Shown one piece after another: positions 3,707 through 52,527 of a stretch of DNA of 64,000 nucleotides; within the stretch, counting starts at the first letter, position 1; each line of letters opens with the position of its first letter. The DNA is from Candidatus Anammoximicrobium sp. (GTDB lineage Bacteria > Planctomycetota > Planctomycetia > Pirellulales > Pirellulaceae), in NCBI GenBank assembly GCA_012515235.1, contig JAAYYU010000188.1:21232-85231 (forward strand), given 5' to 3'. Both the position numbers and the translations under genes were made by a program. The notes under the pieces are model-generated. The model did not search any database and had not been told where the DNA came from. It saw only the letters and a program-made list of their open reading frames with translations.

Positions 3707-4447
3707 TTATCTTCGATTTGTCCAGCCCGGTTGGGCGTATTGGCTGCGGCAAATCCGCGCCGCAGCCTCCTTTTCCCAAGGGGCGGGGGAGTCGGAGTGG
3801 AACGTCAAGCCGAGCTTCCCAGCCACCCGTTGGGCCCAGCGTTCCGCCAATTCCTTTGGATCGAGCAGGACGGACGCGAGTTCCCCAATTCCGGCCAACT
3901 CGGGGGCGACCGCCGACCGCCGCAAGAGCACGCTGCCATGCTGCAGCAATGCACCGTGCCGGCGACGCTGGGCGCTGCCGGCAATCTTGTGATCTCCCAT
4001 CAAGACATCCCCTTGCGCTCGCCGCAGGAAGCACAGGAACGGCTCTTCCGGCGGCTTCCTCGCGGGCGACGGGCACAGCCCGGCCACGATTCCGCGCTGG
4101 GCCAATTCCTCGACCAACGTCCCATGAAAGGCGTCGTAGTAATCCGCCAGACCGCCGCGGACGTGGGCCGGGACGCCCGTCGTAAAGCTGTACGTCAATT
4201 CCAGGTCATGGACAATCGCGCCGCCGCCCGTCGATCGCCGCACCAAGGGGCAGTGGCGGCTCGCGGCGTGCGTCTGGCGGTCTGCGGAACGCTGGAAGTA
4301 GCCCAGCGACAGCGTCGGCTCGCTCCAGAAGTAAAACCGCAAACACCCCCCCTGCCCTGCCCTGCCGGCGGACTCCAGGAGCGCCTCGTCCAGCGCCATG
4401 TTCCAAGCCCCGTCGGCGGGCTCGTCGATCATTAGTCGGCATTCCAT
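3707..4447 (-). CDS. lplA: Lipoate/biotin-protein ligase A-like protein
   Basis: NMALDEALL...PTLSLGYFQ...LVRRSTGGGAIVHDLELTYSF; overlaps gcvPB by 16 nt. Confidence 0.83.
   Translation of the reverse strand: MECRLMIDEPADGAWNMALDEALLESAGRAGQGGCLRFYFWSEPTLSLGYFQRSADRQTHAASRHCPLVRRSTGGGAIVHDLELTYSFTTGVPAHVRGGLADYYDAFHGTLVEELAQRGIVAGLCPSPARKPPEEPFLCFLRRAQGDVLMGDHKIAGSAQRRRHGALLQHGSVLLRRSAVAPELAGIGELASVLLDPKELAERWAQRVAGKLGLTFHSDSPAPWEKEAAARICRSQYAQPGWTNRR
4346..4366 (-). repeat. G-rich microrepeat copy A (GGCAGGGCAGGGCAGGGGGGG on minus strand)
   Basis: Read directly; inside the lplA-like CDS. Confidence 0.85.
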
Positions 4448-11476: not shown

Positions 11477-13417
11477 TCACTTTTCCGGTTTGCGATGCAA
11501 CACAACCTGTTCGACCCACGTGGTCTTTCCCCCTCCCCCCTGCCCTGCCCCGGCGGCGAGGGGCTTGGTGGCGTCGATCGCCAGGCCCGTGAGCCCCGCC
11601 AGCAGAAAGGCAGCGGCGCAGGCCAGGAACGCCGCCATCCAGTTCTGGCTGGGGCCGATGATCCAGATCAGCAGCGGCGGCGTGACGGCCGCGCCGAAGT
11701 TGCCCCACATGTTGGTCCAGCCCAACACGGAGGCCGTCTGCCGTCCGCCGATGTCCTGGCAGAACGCCCACACCGTCCCCTGACTCCAATCGGTCAGGAA
11801 CGCCACCAGCGAGAACAGCACGACCGCGCCCCACGGCGAGGGCTCGAACAAGAAACCCAGATAGGCGCCGACCGCCAACAGCCGCGACAAGCCGATCGGC
11901 AGCGAGCGGCTCCACCGCAAGCCCATCGTCCGCAGCAGATAATCCGTCCACAGGCCGCCCAGCACGGTGCCGAACCAGCCGACCAGGGGCGGAATCGAAA
12001 CCAGCAGCGCCCGCTCCTCGACCGGCAACTGGTGAACGCTCTGAAAATAACGCGGGGCCCAAGTCACGATGAACACCCAGCCGACGTTGGTGAACAACTG
12101 CGAAGCGGAGAGCAACCACAGACTGAGACTGGCGGCCAGGCGGGCGAGGGCGGCGGCGGGCGCCCCCCTGCCCTGCCCTGGATCTGGGGTCAGACGCACA
12201 GAATTCAATTTTCGCGGCCCATCGTCCTGCCCGGTGGAAGATTCAGTCCCCGCGAAAATTGAATTCTGTACGTCTGACCCCAACGGCGGAGTCGCAGGAG
12301 CGCGGTTTTCGATCAGGGACCGTTCGGCGTCGTTCACGCCGGTGTGGTCCGCCGGGTGGTTGCGGCACGTCCACCACACCAGCGCAGCGACCGCCAGTCC
12401 CAGGCAACCGTAGACGAACATCATCGGACGCCAGCCTGCGCCGTAAAGTCTCCGCACGGTGTCGCGGTGGGCGGCTTCCAGGATCAGGCGGTTCAGCCGC
12501 TGGACCTGCCGCTCGTCCAACTCTTCCGGCCGCTGGGCCAGCAACCGCCTGGCTTCTCGCTCCAGCGGCAACGACGACGCGGCGGCGCGGCGGAAGAACC
12601 CGCGCCGCGAGATCATGCCGTTCAGGTCGGCGGTGAGTTGCCCGGCGTCGAGACCGGGCGGCGCGGCGAGGGGAACCACGTCGGCCCCCCCTGCCCTCCC
12701 CTGCCCCGGCGCCTTCCGGCGCTCTGTCTCGGCATTCCGCTCCGCTCGATATGCGGTCGCACAGTCCGAGACGGCAGACCGCGTAGTCGTCGGCAGAGCG
12801 TTCAAAATCTTGGCGTTGACGACCGCCGCCACGTCGGCGTCGCCGCCTGGAGCGGAAAGCTCGTAGCAGAACCGCGGCACGTCCAGCAAATCCCGCGGCC
12901 GGAGCGTGGCGGGCGTCGCAGCCGGCGTCAGCCACACGATCAGCGGTCCGCTGGCAAACAGCGCCAGCCAGCCGCCCACGCGCCCGCCGACCGACACGAG
13001 GCTGCTGGCCGTGGCCCGCGCCGACACGGGCATCCACCTGCCGATGAGGCTGGCGCCCGTCGGATACGCGCCGGCCTGCGCGATGCCGAATCCCAATCGC
13101 AGCAGGATCAGCATCCCGAAGCCCGCGGCCACACCGGTCAAGCCGGTCAGCAGCGACCAGCCCAGAACGTAACTGGTCAGCATGAGCCGCGGGCCGAAGC
13201 GGTCCGTCAGCCAGCCGGAAGGGACTTGGCTCAGCGCGTACGTCCAGAAAAAGGCGCTCAGCATCCAGCCCACCTGGCTGTCGGTCAGGCCCAAGTCCTC
13301 CTTGATAAAAACTTCGGCAAAGGAAATGCAGAAGCGATCCAGGTACAACAGCACCGCCATCAGGGCCGTGACGGCCACGACGAGATAGCGGACGCGTGTG
13401 GGGGACGAAGGCGGCAT
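11477..13417 (-). CDS. MFS transporter with expanded central loop
   Basis: LYLDRFCISFAEVFIKEDLGLTDSQVGWMLSAFFWTYALSQVPSGWLTDRFGPR...GWVFIVTWAPRYFQ; contains in-frame palindromic element at 12186..12281. Confidence 0.9.
   Translation of the reverse strand: MPPSSPTRVRYLVVAVTALMAVLLYLDRFCISFAEVFIKEDLGLTDSQVGWMLSAFFWTYALSQVPSGWLTDRFGPRLMLTSYVLGWSLLTGLTGVAAGFGMLILLRLGFGIAQAGAYPTGASLIGRWMPVSARATASSLVSVGGRVGGWLALFASGPLIVWLTPAATPATLRPRDLLDVPRFCYELSAPGGDADVAAVVNAKILNALPTTTRSAVSDCATAYRAERNAETERRKAPGQGRAGGADVVPLAAPPGLDAGQLTADLNGMISRRGFFRRAAASSLPLEREARRLLAQRPEELDERQVQRLNRLILEAAHRDTVRRLYGAGWRPMMFVYGCLGLAVAALVWWTCRNHPADHTGVNDAERSLIENRAPATPPLGSDVQNSIFAGTESSTGQDDGPRKLNSVRLTPDPGQGRGAPAAALARLAASLSLWLLSASQLFTNVGWVFIVTWAPRYFQSVHQLPVEERALLVSIPPLVGWFGTVLGGLWTDYLLRTMGLRWSRSLPIGLSRLLAVGAYLGFLFEPSPWGAVVLFSLVAFLTDWSQGTVWAFCQDIGGRQTASVLGWTNMWGNFGAAVTPPLLIWIIGPSQNWMAAFLACAAAFLLAGLTGLAIDATKPLAAGAGQGGGGKTTWVEQVVLHRKPEK
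11535..11551 (-). repeat. G-rich microrepeat copy D
   Basis: Plus strand CCCCCCTGCCCTGCCCC, in the MFS gene. Confidence 0.85.
12163..12180 (-). repeat. G-rich microrepeat copy E
   Basis: Plus strand CCCCCCTGCCCTGCCCTG, 5 bp from palindromic element 1. Confidence 0.85.
12186..12281. repeat. Long-inverted-repeat element, copy 1 (96 bp, ~32 bp arms)
   Basis: Arms ggggtcagacgcacagaattcaattttcgcgg / ccgcgaaaattgaattctgtacgtctgacccc match at 31 of 32 positions; related to 34271..34366 and 31194..31290. Confidence 0.9.
12685..12707 (-). repeat. G-rich microrepeat copy F
   Basis: Plus strand CCCCCCCTGCCCTCCCCTGCCCC, in the MFS gene. Confidence 0.8.
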
Positions 13418-15908: not shown

Positions 15909-15997
15909 GAAAGGGACTCCTTTGTTTTCGGTGTTCTGCAAAGTCATCGTCTGGGTCTCCGGGACAGGCACAGTTCCCGGCTCAACCTTTACCCGCG

Positions 15998-16040
15998 AGC
16001 ATTTTGGAGTGCGGCGCCTTGTCGCCGCTTTGGCTCGATG
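15998..16040. repeat. Dispersed repeat (GGAGTGCGGCGCCTTGTCGCCGC[T/C]TTGGCTCGATG), copy 1
   Basis: Near-identical to 52383..52424. Confidence 0.8.
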
Positions 16041-16217
16041 CCGATGCGACGACCGGCCCTGTGTGTTCAGATGCGTAGCCCCTTGACGGTGTTGTCGAGT
16101 TCGCCGTCCACAACTAGGTCGGTAATGCGCCATGCCATACGGGTATCGTACCCACAGACCACCACCAGCGAAAGAAGCCCGACGTCGTCCGACTCCGCAC
16201 AAGGGAGCCAAGCCCGC

Positions 16218-31127: not shown

Positions 31128-31193
31128 TCGCGTCTTTCGTGGTCAAGGTCGCAAGGCGCTCGTGAGCCGTGCGGTGGTGCTGGGAGCGGGGCT

Positions 31194-31290
31194 GGGTTCA
31201 GGCTTACAGAATTCAATTTTGGCCGAGCAGGGTCGTACCATCTGGCTGACGCCACGATCGGCCAAAATTGAATTCTGTAAGCCTGAACCC
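31194..31290. repeat. Long-inverted-repeat element, copy 2 (97 bp, 33 bp arms)
   Basis: gggttcaggcttacagaattcaattttggccga and its exact reverse complement at the other end. Confidence 0.93.
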
Positions 31291-31331
31291 ATGCTGGACA
31301 GCGTCTCTCCGTGTCAGTTTCCCGTTTGGCG

Positions 31332-32474: not shown

Positions 32475-34253
32475 TCACTTGTTCTTTCCCAACACGATGT
32501 CGCGTGTCAGGCGGTAGATCGTCTCCTGGCGTTCGGCCAACTTGATCAGCGCCTCGCGCAAGTCCTGATCGGTCGCCTGGCCGACCGGGTCCTCCACGTC
32601 CTTCAGCAGCCGAGCGTAGCGTTGGGTGCGGGTGTTGACCCGCAGCTGCAGTGCCCGGATCATTTTCAACTCGGCGATGGCATCGACCAGCGGCATGTCC
32701 TGGGGTTGGCCCGGCCGTGCCAGTTGTTGCTGCCGCTGTTTTTCCATGTCTTTTTGCGCCTTCTGCAGGGCTTCGATCATCTCCTGCAGCGCCGCGATGA
32801 CGTCCTGTTCGATGCCCTGCGTGATGTCCTCCACTTTGGCGGCGTCCAGCCGGTCGGCGACCTGCTGCATATCATCCCGCATCTGGCTGACCGTTTCGGG
32901 GAAAGCGACCGAGGAGCCTTCCTCCAGGAGCAGGTTCAGCGCCTTGTCGGCTTCGACGACCAGCTTGCGTTCATCCACCGCCAGCTTGCCGGCGGGAATC
33001 GGGATCTTCAAATCGCGTTCCGGCTCGTCAATCTCGTCGAGTCGCACGGTGTCTTCGTAGATCCGGACTTGGATTTCCAGCATCTTGCGAAAGCGGCTTT
33101 CGAGCAGCGCCAGCACGCGTTCGACTTCCTCCTCGCGCATCTGCCTCAGGATCCGCTCCAACTCGGCCTTGGCTTTCTCGAGTTCTTCCTTGGCTTTTTC
33201 TTGTTCGGCGACGGCGTCGTTGCGTTGTGCTTCCTCGAGCCGTTTCCGGGCTTCTCGCATCCGCTCCTGGGCGGCTTCGACGCGTTTGCGGGCCGGGTTG
33301 CCTTCGTCGGCTGGCGGTTGGTCTTGCGGCTGGTCCGGCTGGCCTTGTGCTTCCCCCTGGCTTTGGCCCTGTTGGCCGTGGCCCTGGCCCGGACTGGGCG
33401 GTTTCTTCGGCTGGTTCTGCCCGTCTCCCGGTTGGTCCGAGTCCCGTTTCTGGCCGGCCTCTTTCGCTTGGCCTTGAGCGGGGCTCTTTCCCTGTCCGGC
33501 TGCTTTGCCCTGCGGGGACTCCTTGTTCTGCCCCGGCTCTTTGCCTTCCGCCGCCTTACGGTCTTCGTGTTCGGCCTGCGGCTGTTCGCCGGGCTTGGCC
33601 TGGTCGCCGGAGTTGGCGTCGGTCTGCCGCGCAGCGCCGCCCTCCTCGTTTTCTCGGATCTGTTTTGCGAGTTCGCCGGTGCGGTCGGCGACTTTGGCTT
33701 GATCCTTGGCGAGTTCGCCTGGTTCGGCGCCGCCTTCCGTGCGGCCCTGGACGCTTTTCTGGAGTCGCAGGATGCGTTCCACTTCTTTGATGTATTCGCG
33801 GATCCGGTCCTGCTCGCGTTTCAAACGGTCGGAGCGGTTTTCGCTCAGCAGCAACTCGAGCAAGGCCTTGATCTCCTGATGGGCCTCGCGCTGCAGTCCC
33901 AGCACGCCCTCGCGTTCCGCCTTGTTCCTGGCCTCGAACTGTTCGAGCGACGTGGCGCACCTGTTCAGCTTGACGCCGGTCAGGTTCTGTTTGGACCGTT
34001 CCAGGGCTTTCATCAGCAGCGCCGCGCGGCGCGGGTCGTTGACAGCCTCGATGCGGGCCATGTCCTCGAACAGTTTCTCCAGCTTGGAGTACTTGTCCGC
34101 GATCGCCCCTTGATGGACCACCAATTGCTTGACGTCGGCGGCGACCGACGGCTTGATCTCCGGCCCCGGTGGCCCATCGGCGGCCGGCGCCGGCGGTCCC
34201 CAGATCAGGCAGACCAGGACGGCGAACCACATTCGCTTTCGTGAAGTTTTCAT
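32475..34253 (-). CDS. Secreted coiled-coil protein with G/Q/P/K-rich low-complexity middle
   Basis: Signal peptide; coiled-coil segments either side of GQGKSPAQGQAKEAGQKRDSDQPGDGQNQPKKPPSPGQGHGQQGQ. Confidence 0.75.
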   Translation of the reverse strand: MKTSRKRMWFAVLVCLIWGPPAPAADGPPGPEIKPSVAADVKQLVVHQGAIADKYSKLEKLFEDMARIEAVNDPRRAALLMKALERSKQNLTGVKLNRCATSLEQFEARNKAEREGVLGLQREAHQEIKALLELLLSENRSDRLKREQDRIREYIKEVERILRLQKSVQGRTEGGAEPGELAKDQAKVADRTGELAKQIRENEEGGAARQTDANSGDQAKPGEQPQAEHEDRKAAEGKEPGQNKESPQGKAAGQGKSPAQGQAKEAGQKRDSDQPGDGQNQPKKPPSPGQGHGQQGQSQGEAQGQPDQPQDQPPADEGNPARKRVEAAQERMREARKRLEEAQRNDAVAEQEKAKEELEKAKAELERILRQMREEEVERVLALLESRFRKMLEIQVRIYEDTVRLDEIDEPERDLKIPIPAGKLAVDERKLVVEADKALNLLLEEGSSVAFPETVSQMRDDMQQVADRLDAAKVEDITQGIEQDVIAALQEMIEALQKAQKDMEKQRQQQLARPGQPQDMPLVDAIAELKMIRALQLRVNTRTQRYARLLKDVEDPVGQATDQDLREALIKLAERQETIYRLTRDIVLGKNK

Positions 34254-34270: not shown

Positions 34271-34366
34271 GGGGTCAGGCTTCCAGAATTCGGTTTTCGC
34301 GGCCGATCGTCCAGCCCAAGGGAACGACTGGTCCCCGCGAAAACTGAATTCTGTCAGCCTGACCCC
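34271..34366. repeat. Long-inverted-repeat element, copy 3 (96 bp)
   Basis: ggggtcaggcttccagaattcggttttcgcgg / ccgcgaaaactgaattctgtcagcctgacccc; central region resembles copy 1. Confidence 0.9.
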
Positions 34367-34377
34367 TTGTGCCGCTG

Positions 34378-36777
34378 TTACTCCAAATCGCGCAACAAGT
34401 TCTTCTGCAGTTCGGTATGGGTCTTCTGTGTCTCCCCGATCATCCGCTGCTGGTCATCCATCAATTGGCGGACGATGTCCAGCAGTTCGTTGAAGGTCTC
34501 CAGGTCCAGCATCTGCTGCAGGATTCGCTCCATTTCCGCCAGCACGTCGTTCGCCTGGCTCACCGCCGCGGCAGCTTCCTGCCGGCCGCTGTCCAAATCG
34601 TACTTCTTTGCGGCCAAATCGTCCAACAGGCGTTGTTCCAGCACCTCCTCGCGACGTTCCAGTTCCGGGAACATGGTTTCGCCGATCCACTGCATCGGAT
34701 CGGCGATCTGCTCTTTCAGACGCTTCTTGCGATCTTCCGTATCGACCCGGTTATTGATCAACTCTTCGCGGATGTCATGGAACCCGGCCGCCGCGCCCAG
34801 CAGCTCTTGAGCGCTTTTGCGCGTCTGTTGCAGCGCCTGTTGGACGCGGAGCAGGCGCAGGGATTGGGCCCGCTCGGCGGCCGTCGGTGCGTCCCCGGCC
34901 TTGTCGCCCGGTTCGCGGCCCGGACGCTCGGCGTCGCCCGGTTCCCGGCCTTCGGTTTGCGGCGGAGCTTGGACGCGGTTCAGGAAGTCGCGGGCCTGGG
35001 TCATTTCCTGGATGATCTGTTCGAAGCGGCGGCGGAGCCCGATTTCGCGGGCTTCCAGCATCGCCAGCAGGGTCTCCGGCGCCACGACGTCCAGCTGGTA
35101 CCGGTCGCCGCTGCCCACGTTGGGCCCTGCGTCCAAACCGCACTTGTCGGCAGCGCGAAGGGCCAACGACAACTTGTCCTTGGGCTTCAGTTCCACCTTG
35201 TCGGCCTGGGACCTCAGCTCGCGGAAGTCGACCGCGGCCTCGACTTGGCCGCCCTGGGCCAGGGGAAATTCGCGCGCCAACGGCTCGTCCTTCTGTTCGT
35301 TCTCGGCCACGGTTGCCCGCGTGAGGATCATGTCAAACCAGGCCTTGTCAACGCCGTAGTCGTCGGAGATCGTTCCCCAGGCGGGGATCATCACGTCCGG
35401 CGTCACCGCGGTGCCGATGCCCTTCAGCCGCACCTCGACCCGCGGAGCTTCGTCCGGAATCGCCGCCAGGAAGATCCGATACGGCCGCTCCGTCACGACG
35501 TCGTCCGCGTCGAACAGCGTCACGTCCAGCGTCAGGTTCGCCTCCAAGCGGCCCACGGGAACCACGAATTGCTGCAGGGCCGCAGGGTCGAATTCGCCGA
35601 GCGTGCGGATGTCCTGCGTCTGGACGTTGTACACGTCAACGCGTTTCAACGGCTTGTTGGTGTGCGCGCGGATGGTCACTTCCGTGCCCTGGGGCAACTG
35701 CGTCGAATTGGTCCAGGCGACGGTCCGCGGCAGCCACGAGCCCGCCTTCTGGTCGACCATGTACGCGGGGAATTTGCAGTCCAAATCGACGCCCACGACC
35801 GCCGGGCTGTCCACCACCTGGATCGTATAGTCGCGGACGCGGCAGTCGTAGCCCACGACGTCGAAGTGGATGTCCGTCAGGATGCCTTGCAGCGGCTGGC
35901 CCGAAAACGTGTACTGTTGGTACTCGTCCCGGCTCCGCTTCATGCGGTTCATGGTCACCCGTCCCCGCTGGCCGTCCGCCGCGTGGTAGTGAATCGTGCA
36001 GGTTTCGGGAACGACTTTGGCTTTGAGAGCGGCCCGCACTTTGAGCCGCAGGTTGGAGCCCTTGGCGACCTTCAGGCTGCCGTCGCGGAAGGGAATCAGC
36101 GGCACGTCGGCCGCGGCCTGCGGAGCGTCCTCCGGCCCCAGCAACTCGACGCCGACCACCTCGATCGACGCGCTCCGCGGCCAGGCCTCGTCGCGCAAGA
36201 GATACCCGCGCCGCGCCCAGACGGCCAGCGCCTGCCGGTTCTGCGCGTAGAACCCGACGATCGTTCCCAGCAGGACGAGGGCGCCAAGCAGGCTCCGGAC
36301 CAAGGGCCGGTAATTGAAGACGGCCCCCAACCGCACGCGGCCGGCATCCTCCAACGCCTCCCGGCCGGTGTGAGCCAGCATCGACGCATCGAACGTCTGA
36401 GCGTGGTCGGGTTGCTCGCTCAACTCGACCGACGTCACCAGGCTGTCGCGAAACATGCCGAACCGCCGCTCCAGCAGCACCGCCATGCTGCGGTTGGCCA
36501 GAGGCACGAAAGCGCGACGGAACACCCAGTGAAACAGAATGTAGGCCAAGCCCGCGGCGACAATCGCCAGCACCACCGCCCGCGCCGCGCGAGGCATCTC
36601 GCTGGCCCCCGCCAGCACCGGCAGATAGTCCAGGGCCAGCGCCGCCCAAAATGTGAAGCCCAGCCAGATCACGGCCAACGCCAGTCCCTCCAGCCAAACG
36701 TAAACACGAATCCGCCACCGCAGCCCCAGGAGCAGGCCACTCAGTCGCGGATCAAGTTGTCGGCTGGAGGTGGTCAT
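34378..36777 (-). CDS. Large membrane-anchored protein (DUF4175-like)
   Basis: N-terminal TM segments (LEGLALAVIWLGFTFWAALALDYL, AVVLAIVAAGLAYILFHWVF), long periplasmic part, C-terminal coiled coil. Confidence 0.7.
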   Translation of the reverse strand: MTTSSRQLDPRLSGLLLGLRWRIRVYVWLEGLALAVIWLGFTFWAALALDYLPVLAGASEMPRAARAVVLAIVAAGLAYILFHWVFRRAFVPLANRSMAVLLERRFGMFRDSLVTSVELSEQPDHAQTFDASMLAHTGREALEDAGRVRLGAVFNYRPLVRSLLGALVLLGTIVGFYAQNRQALAVWARRGYLLRDEAWPRSASIEVVGVELLGPEDAPQAAADVPLIPFRDGSLKVAKGSNLRLKVRAALKAKVVPETCTIHYHAADGQRGRVTMNRMKRSRDEYQQYTFSGQPLQGILTDIHFDVVGYDCRVRDYTIQVVDSPAVVGVDLDCKFPAYMVDQKAGSWLPRTVAWTNSTQLPQGTEVTIRAHTNKPLKRVDVYNVQTQDIRTLGEFDPAALQQFVVPVGRLEANLTLDVTLFDADDVVTERPYRIFLAAIPDEAPRVEVRLKGIGTAVTPDVMIPAWGTISDDYGVDKAWFDMILTRATVAENEQKDEPLAREFPLAQGGQVEAAVDFRELRSQADKVELKPKDKLSLALRAADKCGLDAGPNVGSGDRYQLDVVAPETLLAMLEAREIGLRRRFEQIIQEMTQARDFLNRVQAPPQTEGREPGDAERPGREPGDKAGDAPTAAERAQSLRLLRVQQALQQTRKSAQELLGAAAGFHDIREELINNRVDTEDRKKRLKEQIADPMQWIGETMFPELERREEVLEQRLLDDLAAKKYDLDSGRQEAAAAVSQANDVLAEMERILQQMLDLETFNELLDIVRQLMDDQQRMIGETQKTHTELQKNLLRDLE

Positions 36778-36793
36778 TCGTCAGTGGTCATTC

Positions 36794-36863
36794 GTCAGTG
36801 GTCAGTGGTCAGTGGTCAGTGGTCAGTGGTCAGTGGTCAGTGGTCAGTGGTCAGTGGTCAGTG
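36794..36863. repeat. 7-bp tandem repeat (GTCAGTG x10)
   Basis: Ten perfect consecutive units counted directly. Confidence 0.95.
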
Positions 36864-36880
36864 GTGCCTTCATCCTTCCC

Positions 36881-52350: not shown

Positions 52351-52387
52351 AACTCTGGCCCGCTTGCTTGTTTTCCGGCTCGCATTC

Positions 52388-52527
52388 TGGAGTGCGGCGC
52401 CTTGTCGCCGCCTTGGCTCGATGGCGACGCCAGGACCGCCGCATCGTGTTCCGGTCCTTGCCGGACCCAATCCGCAACAACGCTCCAGGCCGCTGTCCAA
52501 AGCGGGTGACAAGGCACCGCACTCCAA
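52388..52527. repeat. Repeat element bounded by inverted TTGGAGTGCGG[T/C]GCCTTGTC[A/G]CC arms, copy 2
   Basis: ctggagtgcggcgccttgtcgcc at one end, ggtgacaaggcaccgcactccaa at the other; left arm shared with 15998..16040. Confidence 0.75.

Follow-up and report, generated by a model that had tools for sequence, protein, structure and literature searches.

At the level of sequence, the 96-bp palindrome at 12186..12281 of the window (the whole stretch of 64,000 nucleotides analysed here) is confirmed as a copy of a dispersed palindromic repeat that has entered an MFS transporter gene in frame, at a cytoplasmic loop, and been tolerated there. The repeat itself is very probably a high-copy, non-autonomous, REPIN-like hairpin element that is mobilised in trans by a TIRYT-type RAYT. 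This assignment follows from the ends of the element, the absence of target-site duplications, a flanking CT dinucleotide and the finding, in other planctomycetes, of transposase genes flanked by like elements.

A palindrome read through by a transporter gene

The palindrome (unstranded, with ends GGGGTCAG...CTGACCCC) is made up of a left arm at 12185..12217 and a right arm at 12250..12282, likewise unstranded, which pair with 97% complementarity over 33 nt around a spacer of 32 nt, and its span from GGGG to CCCC measures exactly 96 bp. The single strand is predicted to fold with an energy of -39.7 kcal/mol, compared to -11.2 +/- 2.3 kcal/mol for shuffled sequences (z = -12.2). An Rfam search of the region between 11 and 35 kb of the window returned no matches. 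The gene that reads through the element is an ORF of 646 codons on the minus strand (11477..13417), which is open throughout and whose 646-aa product matches Pfam MFS_1 (E = 9e-40). To this product the element adds GSDVQNSIFAGTESSTGQDDGPRKLNSVRLT and a junction residue, located in the loop between TM6 and TM7. The initial annotation had placed a palindrome here and proposed that it is read in frame by the open transporter ORF; both proposals hold, the peptide it named being present in the 646-aa translation.

A comparison with orthologues from genomes of the same family was made at the protein level, as these sequences, with 40-63% identity across the matched segments, are too divergent for an empty site to be recognised in the DNA, and none is available from a close relative. 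Where the TM6-TM7 loop is complete, which applies to 17 orthologues, it always measures 32-35 aa, compared with 70 aa in the transporter of the window, and in the alignment all 17 have gaps throughout the insert. Of the about 36 extra residues, 32 are encoded by the element and the few others by a G-rich short repeat that abuts it. Such an alignment had been put forward as a check on the idea of a tolerated insertion, and the idea is borne out, the segment being absent in the orthologues and the transporter being free of signs of decay.

The G-rich short repeat (CCCCCTGCCCTGCCC and close variants) is found at positions 4348, 6146, 6756, 11536, 12164 and 12687 of the window, with 7 occurrences of this type versus 0.5 expected. 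Three copies lie within the transporter ORF, one of which is the copy abutting the palindrome. The transporter and all its orthologues also possess an extra domain of about 130 residues between TM5 and TM6 (residues about 165-310), which is unusual for MFS proteins.

One alternative explanation is that the transporter is a recent pseudogene whose open frame is coincidental. This would fit with the retention of the element in a gene just once, and the gene is known from sequence alone, in a MAG with a contamination of 7.6%. However, the 646-codon ORF is intact and the coding score is strong on both sides of the element (0.57 and 0.57). The conserved residues have also been retained, as only two of the 81 positions that are invariant in the orthologues are changed; this is within the range of the orthologues themselves (0-6 changes in most, 22 in one distant outlier) and gives no sign of gene decay. 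A pseudogene is accordingly regarded as unlikely. Even less credence is given to the possibility of co-option, in which the insert would have acquired a selected role, for instance as a linker that regulates the transporter. Its location in the central cytoplasmic loop makes a part in MFS regulation conceivable, but no close relative shows constraint on the segment, and the inserted peptide is low in information and loop-like. The in-frame copy is best regarded as an accident that the loop tolerates, and we infer that the longer protein is produced and harmless.

A large family located between genes

Depending on the pattern used, the arm of the palindrome gives 385-455 hits across the 9.67-Mb genome while a reversed control pattern gives 0, which is far beyond chance and, with two ends per element, corresponds to about 225 copies. 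A search for the arm in 156 other genomes of the order had 0 hits. From the approximately 225 copies, 134 distinct and complete ones were retrieved together with their flanks, taking those with zero- or one-mismatch arms first and adding the best BLAST matches. They belong mainly to a 97-bp type (94 copies) and a 96-bp type (34 copies), the latter including the copy in the transporter gene. Two further copies in the window, pointed out in the initial annotation as lying outside genes, are also real and neither forms an in-frame part of a gene: one of a GGCC-type subfamily at 31193..31291, outside coding sequence by coding score, and one of the 96-bp subfamily at 34271..34366, between the minus-strand ORFs 32475..34253 and 34378..36777 (both copies unstranded).

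The two arms are more alike within one element than between elements, and arm positions 9, 11, 18 and 28 covary on both sides. At position 18, for example, 19 copies have T-A and 15 have A-T; at position 11, T-A is seen in 25 and G-C in seven. End positions 1-8 are conserved in the 134 copies, with GGGGTCAG at nearly every end.

Some copies are arranged head to tail in arrays of arm and spacer with a period of about 79-81 bp, the last unit being one complete palindrome. Such arrays, seen at L200 (G000:C126:14451-14707) and in the L223/L224 regions, resemble BIME-type clusters. Many copies of an AGATTTC type are in turn located inside a further repeat, with …TTCGTCCACCG-TCT preceding the element and CTCCGCGGAAACCGGGAAGTTATTTCGGTCA following it (L010, L012, L019, L024, L201, L227, L243 and others), and a larger composite unit around these copies may be spreading. 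An empty site within the repeat flanking one subgroup was sought, and none was found cleanly. Other repeats in the window are a tandem array of an AGTGGTC unit at 36755-36865, with a spacing of 7/14 bp and located between or within ORFs, and an 81-bp dispersed repeat (GCATTyTGGAGTGCGGCGCCTTGTCGCCGC) at 15988-16068 and 52371-52451, the two copies being 81% identical.

In-frame copies, which the initial annotation had proposed to count genome-wide, were counted among the 134 retrieved ones by applying a codon-pair coding model to 240 bp on each side of the copies; 105 long ORFs served for its training. These include the transporter, and the resulting small bias leaves negative results unaffected. 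Of the 134 copies, 130 were scorable and four had too little flank. A coding frame shared by both flanks, combined with its staying open through the element, was found in a single one of the 130 scorable copies, that in the transporter. The family is thus intergenic, and the transporter copy is a rare exception. When the flanks were reduced to 60 bp, this looser test gave two further weak candidates, L202 and L185, which were rejected as both are located upstream of gene starts, L202 before a truA-like gene. Two loci considered as frameshifted gene insertions, L030 and L072, were also rejected, being gene-to-gene junctions. The orientation of neighbouring genes is near random (76 tandem, 27 convergent and 21 divergent), so a role of the family in termination is not indicated.

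The exception is made possible by the length of the 96-bp type, which is divisible by three, and by a mean of 3.2 of its six frames being stop-free. The stops of the consensus arm all fall in one phase per strand, which leaves about half of the six frames open. That a palindromic repeat may reside in frame within a conserved gene, adding 20-30 aa (here 32), is a property shared with the Rickettsia RPEs and with intragenic REPs, and intragenic REPs of this general sort have already been published, for example from O. terrae and R. conorii (PMC3733652). The precedent of the RPEs, cited in the initial annotation, does not extend to the behaviour of the family: RPEs are found in frame in many genes, in contrast to one of 130 scorable copies here, and a designation of the element as an RPE was rejected for this reason. 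A family that invades genes as the RPEs do, adapted for in-frame reading in many proteins, would be compatible with the transporter copy, with the proportion of open frames and with a length of 96 bp. Against this, the next-best copies after the single in-frame one lie upstream of gene starts, and the commonest subfamily (94 of 134 copies) measures 97 bp, not a multiple of three, which renders such an adaptation highly improbable. It is equally hard to credit that both the 96-bp length and the stop-free frames were selected for harmless passage through genes and that the peptide by now serves a function in the transporter.

Element ends and the signature of insertion

The ends of the element, GGGGTCAG, fit GGGGWSAS, the motif of the inverted repeats located beside TIR-associated tyrosine transposase genes (PMC3733652). 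At the element edges of about 130 copies there were no matches of at least three bases that would represent a target-site duplication, and direct repeats of 2-8 bases were not overrepresented there. The absence of target-site duplications is as expected for single-strand HUH transposition. Among the oriented copies, 41 of 93 and 17 of 34 have a CT dinucleotide immediately before the GGGG end, versus 3.7 and 1.5 expected per position, an enrichment of about 11-fold over background. The transporter copy has this CT as well (12184..12185, plus strand, directly 5' of the GGGG end), which is the putative position of a TnpA-type cleavage site; the E. coli TnpA-REP cleaves at CT beside its REP (PMC8266576).

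A MITE of a DDE-type insertion sequence would likewise be short, non-coding and present in high copy number with terminal inverted repeats. Such an origin has very little probability, however, considering the absence of target-site duplications, the Y1 (HUH) transposase genes flanked by like elements and the end motif, which is that of the TIRYT repeats.

With the REPINs and GTAG REPs that accompany RAYTs in Pseudomonas, E. coli and Stenotrophomonas, the family has in common two inverted units combined in a long hairpin, a high copy number and a mostly intergenic location, as well as a related HUH transposase, the lack of target-site duplication and the CT beside the element. It differs in its longer arms and A+T-rich mid-part, and in the absence of a GTAG (or GTGG) tag at the palindrome, which ends in GGGGTCAG. 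As no GTAG tetranucleotide occurs in the flanks or ends, the element was rejected as a GTAG REP.

The TIR repeats of the TIRYT group, described by Di Nocera et al. 2013 (PMC3733652), share with the family the GGGGWSAS end motif and the dispersal through the genome as single, paired or grouped copies. The published repeats also enclose, in inverted orientation, a Y1 gene with the motifs NHFH, FQ and Y[IV]HLN(P); here this arrangement was seen for elements of the same design in the Pirellulaceae MAG BS150m-G36 and in other genomes, and was not found for the exact arm in the genome of the window. In contrast to the published repeats, the flanking repeat is here a whole hairpin of about 96 bp with a spacer, the about 225 copies are far from 'moderately abundant', and the cognate gene was not found in the assembly from which the window derives.

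Candidate transposases

When 85,462 species genomes were scanned for the element, close elements were identified in the Pirellulaceae MAG BS150m-G36 (L112); an Armatimonadetes MAG contained related ones. BS150m-G36 (G187) holds about 12 such palindromic elements, and at one locus (L132) a Y1_Tnp gene is situated between two palindromes of 96 bp (L132:1346-1441 and 2409-2504). These consist of GGGCTCAGAYGTACAGAATTCAAAATTGGCGG, a spacer and a right arm, the same design as that of the family in the window. The protein encoded between them carries the motifs NHFH, FQ and YVHLN and matches Pfam Y1_Tnp above the cut-off. Its best NCBIfam match is a REP-associated tyrosine transposase, below the curated cut-off (with NCBIfam RAYT scores of 60 and 80 bits, neither of which passes the cut-off of 80), and no meaningful relative was found among solved structures. 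Relatives in other planctomycetes (L265, L267, L268, L280 and L282) adjoin palindromes of about 100 bp that start with GGGGTC and have different arms. This suggests that arm and transposase vary together.

In the genome of the window itself, the nearest transposases (C373 and C122) are 55-64% identical to the L132 protein and carry a related but different end, GGGGTCAGGTCTTGACATTT; both are cut off at contig edges. The motifs of C373 are NHFH, FQ and YVHLNP; like those of the L132 protein, they fit the HUH NH[YF]H, FQ and Y[IV]HLNP set that characterises subclass 2.1 of the Y1 transposases. A transposase with exactly the ends of the family (GGGGTCAGGCTTACAGAATTC) was not found in the assembled genome, and the pattern of an autonomous copy, in which the arm is closely followed by ATGSCNCG, had no matches in its contigs. 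The cognate driver of the exact family may be lost or unassembled. The same genome also contains another Y1 transposase gene (L035, G000:C64:3465-3806), located between 22-bp inverted repeats (AAAAGCGGGACAGGTTCGCTTA), which constitutes a second TIRYT-like unit.

Proposed mechanism and significance

In the proposed scheme, the element would consist of two inverted end units of about 32 nt around a spacer of about 32 nt, and an HUH tyrosine transposase of the RAYT/TIRYT kind would bind to the ends of the hairpin, cleave single-stranded DNA after the CT and integrate the element with no duplication of the target site. The majority of copies would persist solely between genes. The transporter copy, being of the 96-bp subfamily and thereby comprising 32 codons, would have landed in an open frame in the putatively disordered TM6-TM7 loop, so that the MFS protein would have gained a linker of 32 residues and been kept. 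Recent movement of the element was not seen directly; its mobility, at present or in the past, and the identity of the mobilising transposase are what we infer from the features described above.

What is new is this family itself, the link between subclass 2.1 and planctomycete palindromes of about 96 bp, and the census of how rarely such elements occur in frame. The transporter gene offers a clean single case in which a transposase-dependent hairpin element has been turned into protein sequence, its rarity being set by the orthologues together with the census. The TIRYT group has been assigned to subclass 2.1 of the Y1 transposases, TnpA-Y1 (PMC6006769), a subclass reported without REP-like structures near the gene (PMC6006769). 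The high-copy palindromes of planctomycetes are here linked to this group, and this link makes the mode of spreading of subclass 2.1 testable.
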